From NCBI GenBank assembly GCA_937902425.1, contig CALFNB010000539.1:1-64000 (forward strand): a stretch of 64,000 nucleotides of DNA, in the 5' to 3' direction. Shown one piece after another: positions 44,755 to 54,386 of this stretch. How positions within the stretch are numbered: position 1 is the first letter of the stretch; each line of letters opens with the position of its first letter. The translations under genes were made by a program, and so were the position numbers. The notes beneath the pieces were generated by a model, which worked only from the letters and a program-made list of their open reading frames with translations, searched no databases and was not told the DNA's origin. The stretch comes from an uncultured Acetobacteraceae bacterium (GTDB lineage Bacteria > Pseudomonadota > Alphaproteobacteria > Acetobacterales > Acetobacteraceae).

Positions 44755-44877
44755 CGGTTCCTCGCGCCATGAACCCAACCACGACCTGGCATGAGTTCGG
44801 GTCGGGCGGTGACGCATGAAGAACCGCGGTTTCGAGGGGCTCAACCGCTCGTGAATTCGTGCTATACGAACCATGCC

Positions 44878-45201
44878 ATGGCTCAGCGAATACCGCATGA
44901 TCCCGTGCTGAAGCGCTTCCGTGCCGCGGTGACCGAACTCTACGGGGACCGCGTGGAACGGGTGGTGCTGTTTGGCTCTCGCGCGCGCGGCGACCATCGC
45001 GCGGATTCCGATTACGATGTCGCGCTGTTCCTCCGCGATATACGCAGTCGGGCGGAGGAGATGACCCGGCTCGCGGAGGTCGAGACGGATATTCTTTATG
45101 ACACCGGATCTCTGATCAACGCATTGCCCTTTCCGGCTGGTGCTTACAAGGAGCGGACAGGATTTATGAGCGAACTGCGGCGCGACGGACTGGATCTGTG
45201 A
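44878..45201 (+). CDS. MNT-type nucleotidyltransferase (antitoxin of MNT/HEPN pair)
   Basis: VERVVLFGSRARGDHRADSDYDVALFL (GSxAxGxxxxxSDxD). Stop overlaps the HEPN GTG. Confidence 0.88.
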   Translation: MAQRIPHDPVLKRFRAAVTELYGDRVERVVLFGSRARGDHRADSDYDVALFLRDIRSRAEEMTRLAEVETDILYDTGSLINALPFPAGAYKERTGFMSELRRDGLDL

Positions 45202-45572
45202 AGCCCGAGACTGCCGACCATATCGCGAAAGCGCGAGAATGCCTGGACGCGGCGATCAAGATCAATACGTTTCCTCTCCCCCAGGTCGCGGCCAAGGAAG
45301 CTTATCTGGCGGTGTTCCACGCGGCCCATGCGTTTATCTTCGAGACCACTGGCAAGGTTGTGAAGAGCCATGGTGGCATGCGCACCATGTTTGCTCTGGT
45401 CGCGAAGGACGACCGCGTATCGATCGTGCGCTCGCCTCGATGTTAAGTCGTGGACCATGCTGTTGGCGCTGAAGGGGTCGTAACGGTGGCGGAGCCACGG
45501 GACGTGATCGATATCGCGCAGCGGTTTGTTGATACGATCATTGATTTACTGCCACCCGACACGGCCGTTTGA
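45198..45572 (+). pseudogene. HEPN-domain protein (toxin), disrupted
   Basis: Frame 0 AKARECLDAAIKI..AAKEAYLAVFHAAHAFIFETTGKVVKSHGGMRTMFALVAKDD. Then another frame gives PRIDRALASMLSR. Then frame 0 again gives DHAVGAEGVVTVAEPRDVIDIAQRFVDTIIDLLPPDTAV (stop 45570-45572). Confidence 0.8.
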
Positions 45573-48680: not shown

Positions 48681-50771
48681 TCACGCTCCCTCGCGCCGCC
48701 AGCCCAATACCAGCAGCGCCAGGATCACCGGCAACGACAACCACGCCGGCAGCAAAGCCAACGAGGCAATGCCGGTCACGATATTGTCGTGCCGGCGTTG
48801 CATCCCGATCCAACTGCCGCCCGACGCTGGGCGATCCGGTTCGGTTCGCCGCAGCGCCGGGACGTCCATCGATGCAAGCGAGCCAAGCCAGTGCACGCCG
48901 CCGCCCGAATCACTCGCCAGCTTGCCAACAACCCCGGCGGTCGCCCGCAGATCGGCGATTTCCGGCGGATTGGCCGCCCCCGCCGCCGCGAACGCGGTGT
49001 GGGTGCCGTCGCTCGCCTGCCAGACGCCGGGTGTTGTCGCGGGCAGGCTTACAGTCCCCGCGCCTGAACCGGTCGGCGCCAGTTGAGCCGTCGTGGTCTT
49101 GCCATCCGGATCGGTAATGGTGACCGGCCCAGGAAGCGCCGGATCGGTGGAGCGGCGCAGAACCGTCAACCGTCCTTCATTCACATGGGCGGTCAGGGCA
49201 TTTTCCTCCAGCGCGGGCTCCTTCATCAGCCAATGCGCGATGCGACGCAGCAGCTCCGCCTGCGGTCCGCCGCCTTCATGCCCTCGCGACCAAAGCCAGA
49301 TCTGATCCGAGAGCAACAGCGCCACGCGTCCCTCGCCGACCCGATCCAGCGCCAGCAGAGGCTGGTCGTCCGGCGTGCGCAACAGCACGGAGCCGCGCAT
49401 ATCGCCGGGTTGGATCCGCCGATACCAGCGCCCCCAGGTGGGAACCCGTTCGGTCCCCGGTGGATTGGCGCCGGCGAGACCCTCGGTCACCGGATGACGC
49501 TGCCCCAGATCTGTCACCAGCGGCCGAAACTGTTCGTTCACCACCGCGTTGAACCGCGCCGGACCGCCTGGCAGCACACTCGCGAGCGGGGTGGAGGCGA
49601 GACTGGTTATCCCGGAAAACTCCGGCCCGACGCTCAGCAGCAAAGCGCCCCCCTGGCGCACCCGGTTGGCGATGTTGGCCAGATACGGGATCGGCAGCAG
49701 ACCGCGGTTCTGGAACCGGTCCAGGATAATCAGATCGAACTCGCCAATCTTGTCCTGAAACAGCTCCCGCACCGGAAAGGCGATCAGCGCCAATTCGTTC
49801 AACGGCGTCATGTCGTCCTTTTCCGGAGGACGCAGAATCGTGAAGTGCACGAGATCGACCGAGGGGTCGGATTTCAGCAACCGCCGCCACGCCCGTTCCC
49901 CCGGATGCGGCTCGCCGGAAATCAACAGCACGCGCAGGCGGTCGCGCACACCGTTGATCTCGACCACGGCGCGGTTGTTGATGGTCGACACCTCACCCGG
50001 CAGCGGACTGGCGGACAGTTCCACGACGGTCGGCCCGGCGCGGGTGATCGGGATCTCGATCTGTTGTTCGCGGCCGATGGAGACGGTGCTTTGGCGCGGC
50101 GGTTCGCCGTCTCGGCGCAGCGTGAGTGTCGCCTGGCCGCGGCCATGTGAGCCCAGATCATCGACGGCGACGCGCAGGGTGACGGGCTTGCCGACGATGC
50201 CGAAACCGGGGGCCTCAATGATCCGCAGCCGGCGGTCGGTTTCCTCGCCTTTCGCTGGGATCAGGACATTCAGGGGCACGTCGCCGGGCACGGTTTTGGG
50301 CACGTCGTGAATTTGGCCGTCAGTGATCGCGACGATACCGGCGAGGCGGGAGCGCGGAATTTCGCCAACCGCGCGCTCGATCTCGCCGAACAACAGCGTG
50401 CCGGCGTCGCCCTTTTCGGGGACGGTGAGGGTGCGCAGATCGAGATCGCGGAACTGCCGCGCCTGCTTGCGGATCGCCGTCTGGGCTGCCTCGGCCACGG
50501 CGGCGCGGTCGTTGACCTGCATCGACGCGGTCTGGTCGATGACCAGCAGCCCGATATCAGGCAGGGCTTCCCGCGTCTCCCGCACCAGCCGGGGGCCGGC
50601 GAGCCACAGCAACAGCATGGCGAACGCCAGGGCACGCAGCACCGCGCCCTTCGCCCGCCGCCACAACGCGAGCGCGCACACCAGAGCGGCGACAGTGGCG
50701 ATCGCGGCGATCAGCCAGATGGGCAGCAGTGGGTCGAAGCGAAGGGCCGCGATGACCTGTTCGGGACGCAT
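48681..50771 (-). CDS. Membrane protein with glutamine-amidotransferase-like/vWA-like region (BatA-associated type)
   Basis: 696 aa; two N-terminal TM helices, DIGLLVIDQTASM, RLRVLLISGEPHPGERAWRRLLKSDPSVDLVHF, NRVRQGGALLLSVGPEF, and a C-terminal TM. Confidence 0.8.
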   Translation of the reverse strand: MRPEQVIAALRFDPLLPIWLIAAIATVAALVCALALWRRAKGAVLRALAFAMLLLWLAGPRLVRETREALPDIGLLVIDQTASMQVNDRAAVAEAAQTAIRKQARQFRDLDLRTLTVPEKGDAGTLLFGEIERAVGEIPRSRLAGIVAITDGQIHDVPKTVPGDVPLNVLIPAKGEETDRRLRIIEAPGFGIVGKPVTLRVAVDDLGSHGRGQATLTLRRDGEPPRQSTVSIGREQQIEIPITRAGPTVVELSASPLPGEVSTINNRAVVEINGVRDRLRVLLISGEPHPGERAWRRLLKSDPSVDLVHFTILRPPEKDDMTPLNELALIAFPVRELFQDKIGEFDLIILDRFQNRGLLPIPYLANIANRVRQGGALLLSVGPEFSGITSLASTPLASVLPGGPARFNAVVNEQFRPLVTDLGQRHPVTEGLAGANPPGTERVPTWGRWYRRIQPGDMRGSVLLRTPDDQPLLALDRVGEGRVALLLSDQIWLWSRGHEGGGPQAELLRRIAHWLMKEPALEENALTAHVNEGRLTVLRRSTDPALPGPVTITDPDGKTTTAQLAPTGSGAGTVSLPATTPGVWQASDGTHTAFAAAGAANPPEIADLRATAGVVGKLASDSGGGVHWLGSLASMDVPALRRTEPDRPASGGSWIGMQRRHDNIVTGIASLALLPAWLSLPVILALLVLGWRREGA

Positions 50772-50870: not shown

Positions 50871-51833
50871 TCAGCGAGCGGCGAGACGCGGATCATCGCC
50901 GGCGATCGCGGCGCGGTGCTGGCGGGCCATGGGCTCTTCCAGACTGATCCGGTGGATCGTCAGTACGAGTTCGAACAGGCGGGGCAGGAAGTCGCGATCG
51001 TTTCGCATGTCGGCGCGGACCGCCGTGCGCAACAGGGGCGGATATGACTGTTCCGGCGACCCGCCGCGCAGAACCGGCAAAACGGTTCGAGCCAAAGCGT
51101 CACGTTTGGTTCTGCGCTCGTTGATGATTCGGATTTCTGCGCGCACGACGGCGTCCTCGGTCTGGTCGTCATATTTCCGGCGATAATCGGGCGTGCCGAT
51201 GGCGCAGATGAAATGGGCCGTCTCGATTTGTTCGATGAAACCGGGCAGTTCGGTGCCGACGACGCTGTGCCACTTGTCCAGCGTCACCGCGATCTCCGCC
51301 TGCCGCAGATGGTCGGCGAGATCCTCGACCCAGCGCTCGTGCTTCGGATCGCCCCAGGCGTAGCTAATGAAACAGCTCGGCGGCGTCGCATCGCCGCGCT
51401 CACGGCGAAAACTCTTCACCCAGGAAATCGCCACCTCGTAATCGGTGCGCCGGTCGGCGGTCTCTGTCGCTTCGCGCACTGCCTGGGCTTTGCCCTCCGG
51501 CGGCGTGCCGATCGCGTTCAGCGCCGGCGTCGGCAATTCCATGCCGCAAGCAAAACAGAACAGATGCGGTTGTTTCGCCTCGATCCGGCTACGCACGGCA
51601 TCGCGTCCTTGCAGCTGCTTGCAGCGAGGGCAGGTGACGGCGGGCAGGCGCGAGACCTGGACGCGGCGGCGAATCAGGAATCGTTCGAACACGCCCTGAA
51701 ACAACAGCCGTGTGTCCTCGCGCGAGCTCAGGCTGTAGGACAGCACCAGCTCGATCTCGCCCTCGGTTTCCGCGGTTCGGCGGAACCCGCAGACCTGGCC
51801 TTGCTCCAGCTCGTATTCCGCCTGGGTCTGCCA
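50871..51833 (-). pseudogene. 3' part of WD40-GTPase-TIR gene: COR-like end, zinc ribbon and TIR/SEFIR domain
   Basis: In frame from WQTQAEYELEQGQVCGFRRTAETEGEIELVLSYSL. Zinc-ribbon Cys pairs TCPRCKQ..FCFACG. TIR/SEFIR SCFISYAWGDPKHERWVEDLADHLRQAEIAVTLDKWHSVVGTELPGFIEQIETAHFICAIGTPDYRRKYD. Confidence 0.85.
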
Positions 51834-53409
51834 ATGATGTTTCCGTCGCGAACAGGCTCGTGTAACCCAGTTGGACGACCAGAGCGGGATAGACGGTTTC
51901 GATCTCGCCGATGACGCGGTAGCTGACGTCGTCGATCAGCGCGGTCGTGGCGACGGGCCGTTTCTCGTTGATCAGCGAGGGGAACACGAGGCAGGTGGCG
52001 CCGTTCACCGTCTCGCGGAAGCAGAGGTTGCGGCGCAGGAACAATCGCGCAGCTTCGTCCAGCAGCAGGCGCCGCTGCTCCGCGGTCAGCCCGGCGAGTT
52101 CCTGCAACGGATAATCGCCGCCGAGCAGCCGCGTTTCGTCCACGAGCCCGAGGCCGCGTTCCTGCCGTCTCGCCTCCAGAACGACTGAGGACGCGAGGTT
52201 CACGAGCAGGTCCGAGGCGAGCAGGACGGAATGCTCGCCGTCGGCGCGCTGGATCAGCGCGACATAGCCGTGATTGGCGAGGTGGCGTACCGCCGTCAGC
52301 ATCTCGGCGCTGTCGAAACGCCAGGCGGGGTCGGTAGCCTGTAGTTGTTGTCGAAGCGCGTCGGCTGGCAACAGGATGTCGGTCTGTCCGCCGCCGGCCT
52401 CCTTCAACCGCAATACGTGATCCTTGATGCGCTTGAAGGTGTCGGTGGTGACGGTCTGGGTCAGGCGATGCCAGGGGATCGCGGCTTTGATGCGCGCCAG
52501 CAGATCCTCGACGCCGACATTGTCGCGGGCGCTGGTGCGGATGTAGCCGGCGATGCCGTTGCGCTGGCAAAATGTCTCGATCTCGGCGTCGGTGAGTGTG
52601 GGCGTGCCGCGGTCGGAGCGGGCGGCGACCAGGATCGTCGGCGCGGTCGAGGCGAGCTTATCGCCAGCCCCGATCGGACCGGCGGCTGCCTGGCGCAGCG
52701 TGGCGGCGTGCAGGTGCTTTATCCAGTATTCGACGCCCGCCAGCGGTTTCTCGCGATTCGCCGGGTCGAACAGCAGCAGGCCGAGATCGACATCGTCGAG
52801 AAACAGCGCATGGATCAGCCGATAGTCGGGCTGCCCGGCAAGGTCCCAGAGAACCGTTTCGCATTGCGTGCCGTCCGACCGCGTCTCACCGAGCCTGTCA
52901 ACCACCCAGAATTGTTGACCATGAGTGGAGGGGTGTTCGCGGAATTCGCCATGGGCGATGCGCCAACCCAGGCCGGTCTTGCCGACTCCGCTGTCGCCAA
53001 GCAGGGCGACGCGGGCGGTGGTGTAGAGGTGATCGTCCGGCGCCACCTCGTCGATCTGCCAGACGCGGACCCATCCATCGGTGTCCGCCGCGAGGAAACG
53101 CTTGCCGTCGGGCAACAGGGCGATGGTGGTGACGGTTCCGCTGTGGCCCTCGATCCGTCGCAGTTCCCTTCCGGTTTCCAGGTCCCAGAGCTGGATCCCT
53201 CCGCGGCCGCCGGACAGTGCGCGCTTTCCGTCGGGGAGAATGGCGAGCGACCAGACAAAGCCTACCGCATCGAAACGGCGGAGTTCCCGCCCTGAAGCTA
53301 GGTCCCAGAGGCGGAGCGTTTCGTCCTCCGATCCGGACAGAGCCCGCATTCCGTCCGGCAACGCGGCGATGGCCATTACGTTATCCGTGTGGCCGTCGAA
53401 TGAAGGCAA
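51834..53409 (-). pseudogene. Central part of WD40-GTPase-TIR gene: three WD40 repeats, Ras/Roc-like GTPase, winged-helix/COR-like region
   Basis: DGHTDNVMAIAALPDGMRALSGSEDETLRLWDLASGREL etc. RVALLGDSGVGKTGLGWRI (G1), LWDLAGQPDYRLIHALFLDDVD (G3), LVAARSDRG, YIRTSARDNVGVEDLL. Confidence 0.88.
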
Positions 53410-53536
53410 TCGCGAAAACGTCTACACCGCCGGTTTCAAGTTCTTGGAGCGGCTCGCCGGAGACGAGATCGGACAACACTGCTTTGCCATCACTATGCCC
53501 GGTCAGGACATGCCGCCCGTCCGGAGACACGGCCAT
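53381..53536 (-). pseudogene. N-terminal WD40 fragment of the WD40-GTPase-TIR gene, out of frame with the rest
   Basis: MAVSPDGRHVLTGHSDGKAVLSDLVSGEPLQELETGGVDVFAIAF, then a frame break into IRRPHG*. Confidence 0.75.
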
Positions 53537-53787
53537 TGACCAGATTATCTCCGCCGCGACCCGGAACCCATTCGATCGCGATTCGTCCCTTCGCAGCTCC
53601 GCTTTCGCGTGATCGTCACCCGCCCGGGTTGGCGTTCGGCCGGACCTACCCGCATTCCCGCGTTTCACAGGTTCACGACCCACTCTCGCCATCCTCTCCG
53701 GAGCCCCCGAAGCCCCTCAAGCCTCGCCGCCTGCTGTGACCGACGGACTGGACGTTACGCGCGCGCACTTCTCCTGTCATCCACCCC

Positions 53788-54100
53788 TCACAACAACAAC
53801 ACTCCACGCACGCCGTCCTCGACCGCTCGCAGGTCCGCGCGCGACGGCACCCCGGCCGGCCGCCGCAACCGCGCGAATCTGGTCGCAAATGGCGACCGAA
53901 TCCTCGCCCTCCGACGGCACGGCCACAACGATGGGCGGACGAGGCTCTGGGTTGGTCGCCAATGGCACGACCCACGATTGTCCGCCGGACCCGGTTCAAC
54001 CCGTCCGTGCTCAACACCGCCGCTCGCCGGCTCTTGCGGATTTCTGCGCCCTGAGTCGGGTCCAAATCTACCCACCAGATTCAACCCCGTCGCGGCGTTC
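53788..54100 (-). pseudogene. MazF/PemK-type toxin, multiply frameshifted
   Basis: Pieces in three frames: IWWVDLDPTQGAEIRKSRRAAVLSTDGLNRVRRTIV, VPLATNPEPRPPIVVAVPSEGEDSVAICDQIRAV and RADLRAVEDGVRGVLLL. In order they form a MazF/PemK-like protein. Confidence 0.85.
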
Positions 54101-54121: not shown

Positions 54122-54386
54122 TCATCGCCCGGGTTTGGGAGGTTCCGGCTCGGCCAGGCCGTCATCGACGGTAGCCGTCTCCCACTCGCCCATCTCGGCA
54201 TTGAGTTGCGCGCGCCGCTCGACCTCCAGCGCGGCCCGGTAGAGCGGGTCATCGTCGCTATCCTCCGGCGGCAATGCCTGCTCGAGCAGTGTTGGATAAA
54301 CAAGCTCCGCTCCCGATGGGCACGGCGCGCCGAAAGCGCCGCACCAGTTCGGCAGGGAGTCGCAACAGCAGTTGCTCGGTCGGCAT
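54122..54386 (-). pseudogene. Ribbon-helix-helix/MazE-like antitoxin, frameshifted
   Basis: MPTEQLLLRLPAELVRRFRRAVPIGS in one frame and TLLEQALPPEDSDDDPLYRAALEVERRAQLNAEMGEWETATVDDGLAEPEPPKPGR in another; break at about 54295-54312. Confidence 0.8.

Follow-up and report, generated by a model that had tools for sequence, protein, structure and literature searches.

A broken WD40-Roc-COR-SEFIR gene on the minus strand

The 64,000-nucleotide stretch of contig CALFNB010000539.1 from an uncultured Acetobacteraceae bacterium analyzed here (the window) contains on its minus strand, at 53692-50871, a gene for a protein with a WD40 propeller, a Roc GTPase, a COR region, a zinc ribbon, and a SEFIR/TIR domain. 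The gene coordinates combine three open frames that overlap one another (53692-53381, 53409-51589, and 51746-50871), through which tblastn with two intact homologues as queries (L010 from Pseudonocardiales and L048 from a cyanobacterium) gave an in-order alignment. Pfam analysis of the frames identified WD40 (PF00400, E = 1.6e-21), Roc (PF08477, 7.6e-16), Ras (PF00071, 1.8e-14), TIR_2 (PF13676, 1.3e-15), and SEFIR (PF08357, 3.7e-6). The order and strand of the WD40, GTPase, zinc ribbon, and TIR/SEFIR domains, proposed earlier in a sequence-only reading of the window, were confirmed by Pfam, PADLOC, the solved bacterial SEFIR structure 5y8f, and the sequence itself, and the motifs quoted in that reading are exact. 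A chance origin of such a co-linear domain set is negligible.

The propeller starts with the remnant of a first blade at 53396-53557 (PF00400, E = 7e-4, in P0004), which aligned to L010 residues 23-71 and lies in a different frame from the remaining propeller. Its three C-terminal blades are encoded at 53050-53409 (residues 3-120 of P0003), and blades matching L010 residues ~72-182, or ~110 residues, are missing in the tblastn alignment. The Roc GTPase at 52480-53022 contains the motifs GDSGVGKT, STHG, DLAGQPDYR, AARSD, and TSA, which are invariant or nearly so in 11 aligned homologues, the P-loop, DxAGQ, and TSA-type motifs being invariant. By Pfam and by fold, this central domain is Roc/Ras, and no STAND ATPase module (NB-ARC or NACHT) was found; the sequence-only reading had likewise assigned a Ras-like GTPase rather than an NB-ARC ATPase. 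COR-A and the start of COR-B follow at 51850-52480, and the remaining COR-B is encoded in another frame at 51640-51845 (tblastn to L010 residues 708 onward). A four-cysteine zinc ribbon (CPRC...CFAC, 51540-51635) closes COR-B and conforms to a family cysteine pattern with some single-cysteine variation.

The SEFIR/TIR effector domain is located at 50934-51380. In addition to the two Pfam families, it matched the PADLOC bSEFIR profile (E = 2.2e-29, profile positions 37-187 of 412) and 5y8f (E = 5.7e-10), the Glu of which aligned to VVRAE and marks a putative catalytic Glu at ~51132-51134. Thus, both the fold and the putative catalytic residue are present in the window protein, and profile and structure searches supported the GTPase as well as the TIR/SEFIR fold. 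Membership in the single-gene bSEFIR system was considered and dropped because the profile was covered only in part.

Evidence for a COR domain behind the Roc GTPase

The region after Roc had been called COR-like in the sequence-only reading, and a Pfam scan of this region found no COR. COR was evaluated with a profile of 11 homologues and with structure models of L010, the nearest intact homologue, standing in for the window protein. Compared with the C. tepidum RocCOR structure 3dpu, the profile matched at positions 3-349, running from Roc into COR. An AlphaFold model of L010 from Roc to the end (predicted local distance difference test score, pLDDT, 77) had LRRK1, LRRK2, the C. tepidum Roco (CtRoco), and M. 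barkeri Roco2 as first PDB matches. To exclude a pull of the GTPase, COR and ribbon of L010 were modelled alone (pLDDT 86.5); the 22 best PDB matches of this model were all Roco proteins (CtRoco, LRRK2), led by the CtRoco structures 3dpu and 3dpt at ~1e-10 (best E = 1.4e-10). Together with the alignment to the L010 COR region, the models and the profile match make a true COR domain a well-supported assignment. With Roc directly followed by COR, and WD40 ahead of them, the protein is a Roco headed by WD40 repeats instead of the usual leucine-rich repeats (LRRs). The N-terminal repeat was WD40, and not the LRR of the prokaryotic LRR-Roc-COR group (group 1), in the window protein and in every homologue for which the N-terminus was scanned or read.

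Decay and accessory nature of the locus

Alignments to the intact homologues change frame at two sites. The first break lies inside the propeller at 53381-53421, where high-scoring segment pairs of two frames meet near 53.40 kb; the second lies inside COR-B, where they stop at 51850 and resume at 51845 in a different frame. Together with the three overlapping open frames, this indicates a gene broken twice. The sequence-only reading presented a single protein, although its proposed checks implied broken frames; the gene is broken and its propeller incomplete. Directly upstream, a PemK/MazF-like toxin relic at 53788-54090 (minus strand) is shattered over several frames, with PF02452 matches in two frames that cover adjoining parts of the profile (positions 5-39, 8e-7; positions 40-82, 0.0084). 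It is preceded by a likely MazE-type antitoxin relic, also frame-broken, at 54122-54386 (minus strand), a region with no Pfam match that was assigned from what its three frames encode and from its position ahead of the PemK relic. Programmed frameshifting was dropped as an explanation because the intact homologues are encoded in a single frame and the neighboring gene is shattered too.

A 696-aa neighbor (48681-50771) is kept in three congeners at 69-72%, where the Roco stretch is not adjacent, and the gene on the other flank is elsewhere or absent in these congeners. The Roco locus is thus accessory. The window gene is genuine but decayed and belongs to a rare family of WD40-headed Rocos.

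Intact relatives with exchangeable effectors

Intact homologues with the same architecture, which the sequence-only reading had suggested searching for, do exist. A scan of one genome per species and whole-genome searches retrieved them sparsely from Actinomycetota, Cyanobacteriota, Planctomycetota, Acidobacteriota, and Chloroflexota, i.e., from at least five phyla besides that of the window. The WD40-Roc-COR-ribbon core is constant in these relatives, whereas the effectors occur in at least six combinations; CHAT and some degenerate domains were called by eye, without a score. The closest intact homologue, L010, is full-length and has a SEFIR effector, and L048 carries a degenerate SEFIR plus a TIR. 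TIR effectors were found in L009, L013, L018, and L043 (Calothrix/Nostoc), L015 (Planctomycetota), and L014, L065, and L066 (Chloroflexota), that of L014 being sub-threshold. L012 (SAR202) and L017 (Acidobacteria) carry DUF4365, which we take to be a nuclease-like domain, and L040, L045, and L062 combine an N-terminal TIR with a C-terminal DUF4365 (degenerate in L040). The planctomycetal L061 (490-4107, plus strand) combines a nucleotide cyclase domain of class III with a TIR on the same chain, possibly joining signal maker and killer in one protein. A metallophosphoesterase is the effector of L063 (1-4152, plus strand), a very divergent member with a tree branch of 1.88 and a propeller of at least nine repeats, and is combined with CHAT in L007 and L008 from Nostoc plasmids, L007 having an additional NACHT.

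Several such proteins with different effectors may occur in one genome: the Nostoc genome G394 encodes TIR and TIR + DUF4365 WD40-Rocos beside an LRR-Roc-TIR protein. The three full-length WD40-Rocos of G394 scored 568-735 bits against the family profile versus 78 bits for its LRR-Roc-COR-TIR protein (L047, read by eye), which matched in the Roc part only. In L045 (Nostoc), the WD40 region at 634-1419 is a 126-bp tandem array of 6.2 copies with 91% identity, which suggests a recent internal amplification of the sensor repeats; such near-identical units fit a fast-changing sensor. The Roc pattern scan also returned Ras-like GTPases from Asgard and other archaea (L020-L032), with weak similarity in the Roc part only.

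Phylogeny, distribution, and gene neighborhoods

A maximum-likelihood tree of the core from Roc to the ribbon resolved three fully supported groups, one each for the SEFIR, C-terminal TIR, and DUF4365 types, with the window protein joining L048 and L010 at 100/100. Every group mixed phyla, as expected under horizontal transfer. For the distribution, centre genomes were left out of the counts and the profile searches scored the first 5-7 candidates per genome, so that all values are lower bounds. Further matches were obtained in at least 1 of 245 Cyanobacteriota, 1 of 276 Planctomycetota, 2 of 276 Acidobacteriota, and 2 of 280 Chloroflexota genomes. Among the scored candidates, no match came from 297 Actinomycetota genomes or from 199 further genomes of the order to which the window belongs; a search of 386 other genomes of its class that used only the window protein as query was likewise negative. 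WD40-Rocos were detected in at most ~1% of the sampled genomes. Three scans of viral contigs retrieved no relative, which argues against a common phage-borne gene.

The sequence-only reading had asked whether intact homologues sit in defense islands, and several of them lie beside defense-type genes. L017 is adjoined by divergent PtuB- and PtuA-like (Septu) genes, L013 and L018 by NACHT-NCH2 proteins, and L010 has a DUF559/AbiEi-like gene next downstream. L007 and L008 are located on conjugative Nostoc plasmids with MoxR ATPase, SAV_2336-type, and NACHT genes, and L009 on a mobilizable plasmid with an integrase nearby. These neighborhoods are suggestive of defense. The sequence-only reading had named as grounds against it unsupported folds, or consistently housekeeping contexts with no NADase or defense phenotype; the supported folds and the defense-type genes beside several homologues are the opposite of this.

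Relation to known systems

Kaur et al. (2021, eLife 10:e70394, PMC8195603) predicted counter-invader systems built from prokaryotic AP-GTPase (Roc)-COR proteins that carry LRRs at the N-terminus and draw on at least 24 effectors, so the principle is known. The WD40-Rocos share with these systems the Roc-type GTPase and COR switch, an N-terminal repeat domain, interchangeable C-terminal effectors including TIR, and several copies per genome with different effectors. They differ in having a WD40 propeller in place of the LRR head, a four-cysteine ribbon after COR-B, and SEFIR, DUF4365, or cyclase effectors. A 2019 review assigned all prokaryotic Rocos then known to the LRR group (PMC6337361). 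In the searched literature, we found no description of a WD40-headed, ribbon-bearing Roco branch, and it appears to be new, although Figure 6D of the 2021 paper may include such proteins. Likewise, no natural function of bacterial Rocos is established in the searched literature.

CtRoco, M. barkeri Roco2, and LRRK1/LRRK2, the top structural matches, share the Roc-COR tandem; however, CtRoco is headed by an LRR and lacks an effector, and LRRK2 has a kinase and a C-terminal WD40. The anti-phage protein bSEFIR of PADLOC also has a SEFIR domain with the conserved Glu, but here WD40-Roc-COR ahead of SEFIR replaces the unmatched remainder of the profile. The likeness to NLR/STAND proteins (APAF1, NACHT-WD40, TIR-NB-ARC) drawn in the sequence-only reading applies to the layout, i.e., a sensor repeat, an NTPase switch, and a TIR-type effector in a single chain; it does not extend to the switch, which is a Ras-clade GTPase here.

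Proposed function and alternative explanations

We favor, with fair but not high confidence, the view that the window gene is a recently broken WD40-Roc-COR-ribbon-SEFIR Roco, the intact relatives of which are GTPase-switched immune receptors that, through their effector, kill an infected cell or stall it; the WD40-headed family as a whole is probably one of immune receptors. The propeller would most likely sense an invader- or damage-derived ligand, the binding of which would change the nucleotide state of Roc. COR may convert this change into an altered dimer or oligomer state, by which the C-terminal SEFIR/TIR effector would be brought together or released to cleave NAD+, and the infected cell would die or stall. 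Ligand sensing, the COR relay, GTP-controlled effector activation, NADase activity, and the defense role are what we infer from domain content and context. CtRoco forms a dimer without nucleotide and a monomer once GTP is bound, a transition in which its LRR moves aside (PMC11052575). The WD40 head may, in a similar way, cover the Roc-COR core and release the effector when displaced; alternatively, GTP could drive the clustering of effectors directly. A published list of NAD+-depletion defenses includes both SEFIR and TIR domains (PMC12774641).

Several observations weigh against this view. TM-scores of the L010 models to solved Rocos were low (~0.3-0.45), probably because the subdomains move, and a sequence profile of COR alone had no match to solved CORs, returning zinc-finger noise only. 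The monomeric state of CtRoco on GTP means that simple GTP-driven clustering may be wrong, and the degenerate SEFIR plus second TIR of L048 implies that SEFIR need not be enzymatic. The window's own intact flanking genes are not defense genes, and L012 and L014 have no defense neighbor.

WD40 and TIR domains can also be scaffolds. The protein could accordingly be a GTPase-controlled signaling scaffold unrelated to phage defense, e.g., one that multicellular bacteria use in development or to recognize kin, with SEFIR/TIR serving protein interaction; several hosts are indeed filamentous or complex (Nostoc, Calothrix), and the TIR of L014 is sub-threshold. We consider this improbable, since the sparse, patchy distribution, the groups spanning phyla, the plasmid copies, and the exchangeable enzymatic effectors with Septu-, NACHT-, and MoxR-type neighbors fit the typical pattern of conflict systems rather than that of conserved development. 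About equally improbable is that the protein is one part of a multi-gene system, guarding a host component or sensing phage via a partner gene lost here. MoxR/vWA-type ternary genes adjoin L007 and L008, and AP-GTPases have been placed within MoxR-vWA systems (Kaur 2020, PMC7159879), but no partner recurs beside L010, L013, L014, L017, and L018 except the NACHT gene of two close Nostoc loci.

The frame breaks themselves could be assembly or consensus errors in an otherwise intact gene. The source assembly has 667 contigs and 89% completeness, the long pieces contain no in-frame stop and have normal codon-position GC, and L011, which comes from Bryobacterales and belongs to the SEFIR clade with 66% identity to L010, is likewise spread over several frames (3-1968) on a short contig. 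Yet the genes flanking the broken stretch are open and full length, while the twice-broken Roco gene and the PemK relic both fall within 50.9-54.4 kb, and the ~110-residue propeller loss goes beyond single-base errors. This explanation is therefore unlikely, if slightly less so than the previous two. Returning to the immune receptor, a broader proposal is put forward tentatively, with a little less than even weight: an undescribed multi-phylum Roco branch with WD40 head and zinc ribbon would serve as an immune receptor made of one protein, with a Ras-like GTPase taking the role of the NLR/STAND ATPase and firing interchangeable NADase, nuclease-like, cyclase, or phosphoesterase effectors.

Bacterial Rocos are the standard models for LRRK2, the Parkinson's-linked Roc-COR GTPase. 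A Roc-COR switch joined to known suicide effectors near defense genes would offer a direct handle, with the GTPase turned on or off and NAD+ or phage survival as the readout. WD40 would be a second sensor type, besides LRR, for GTPase-based bacterial receptors, paralleling the LRR/WD40 alternatives of NLR-type receptors.

Other features of the window

At 44791-45443 (plus strand), a nucleotidyltransferase gene (PF01909; PADLOC PDC-S09, 3.6e-22) is followed by one for a short HEPN-like protein (PF05168, 2e-4), the couple representing an MNT/HEPN-type pair.
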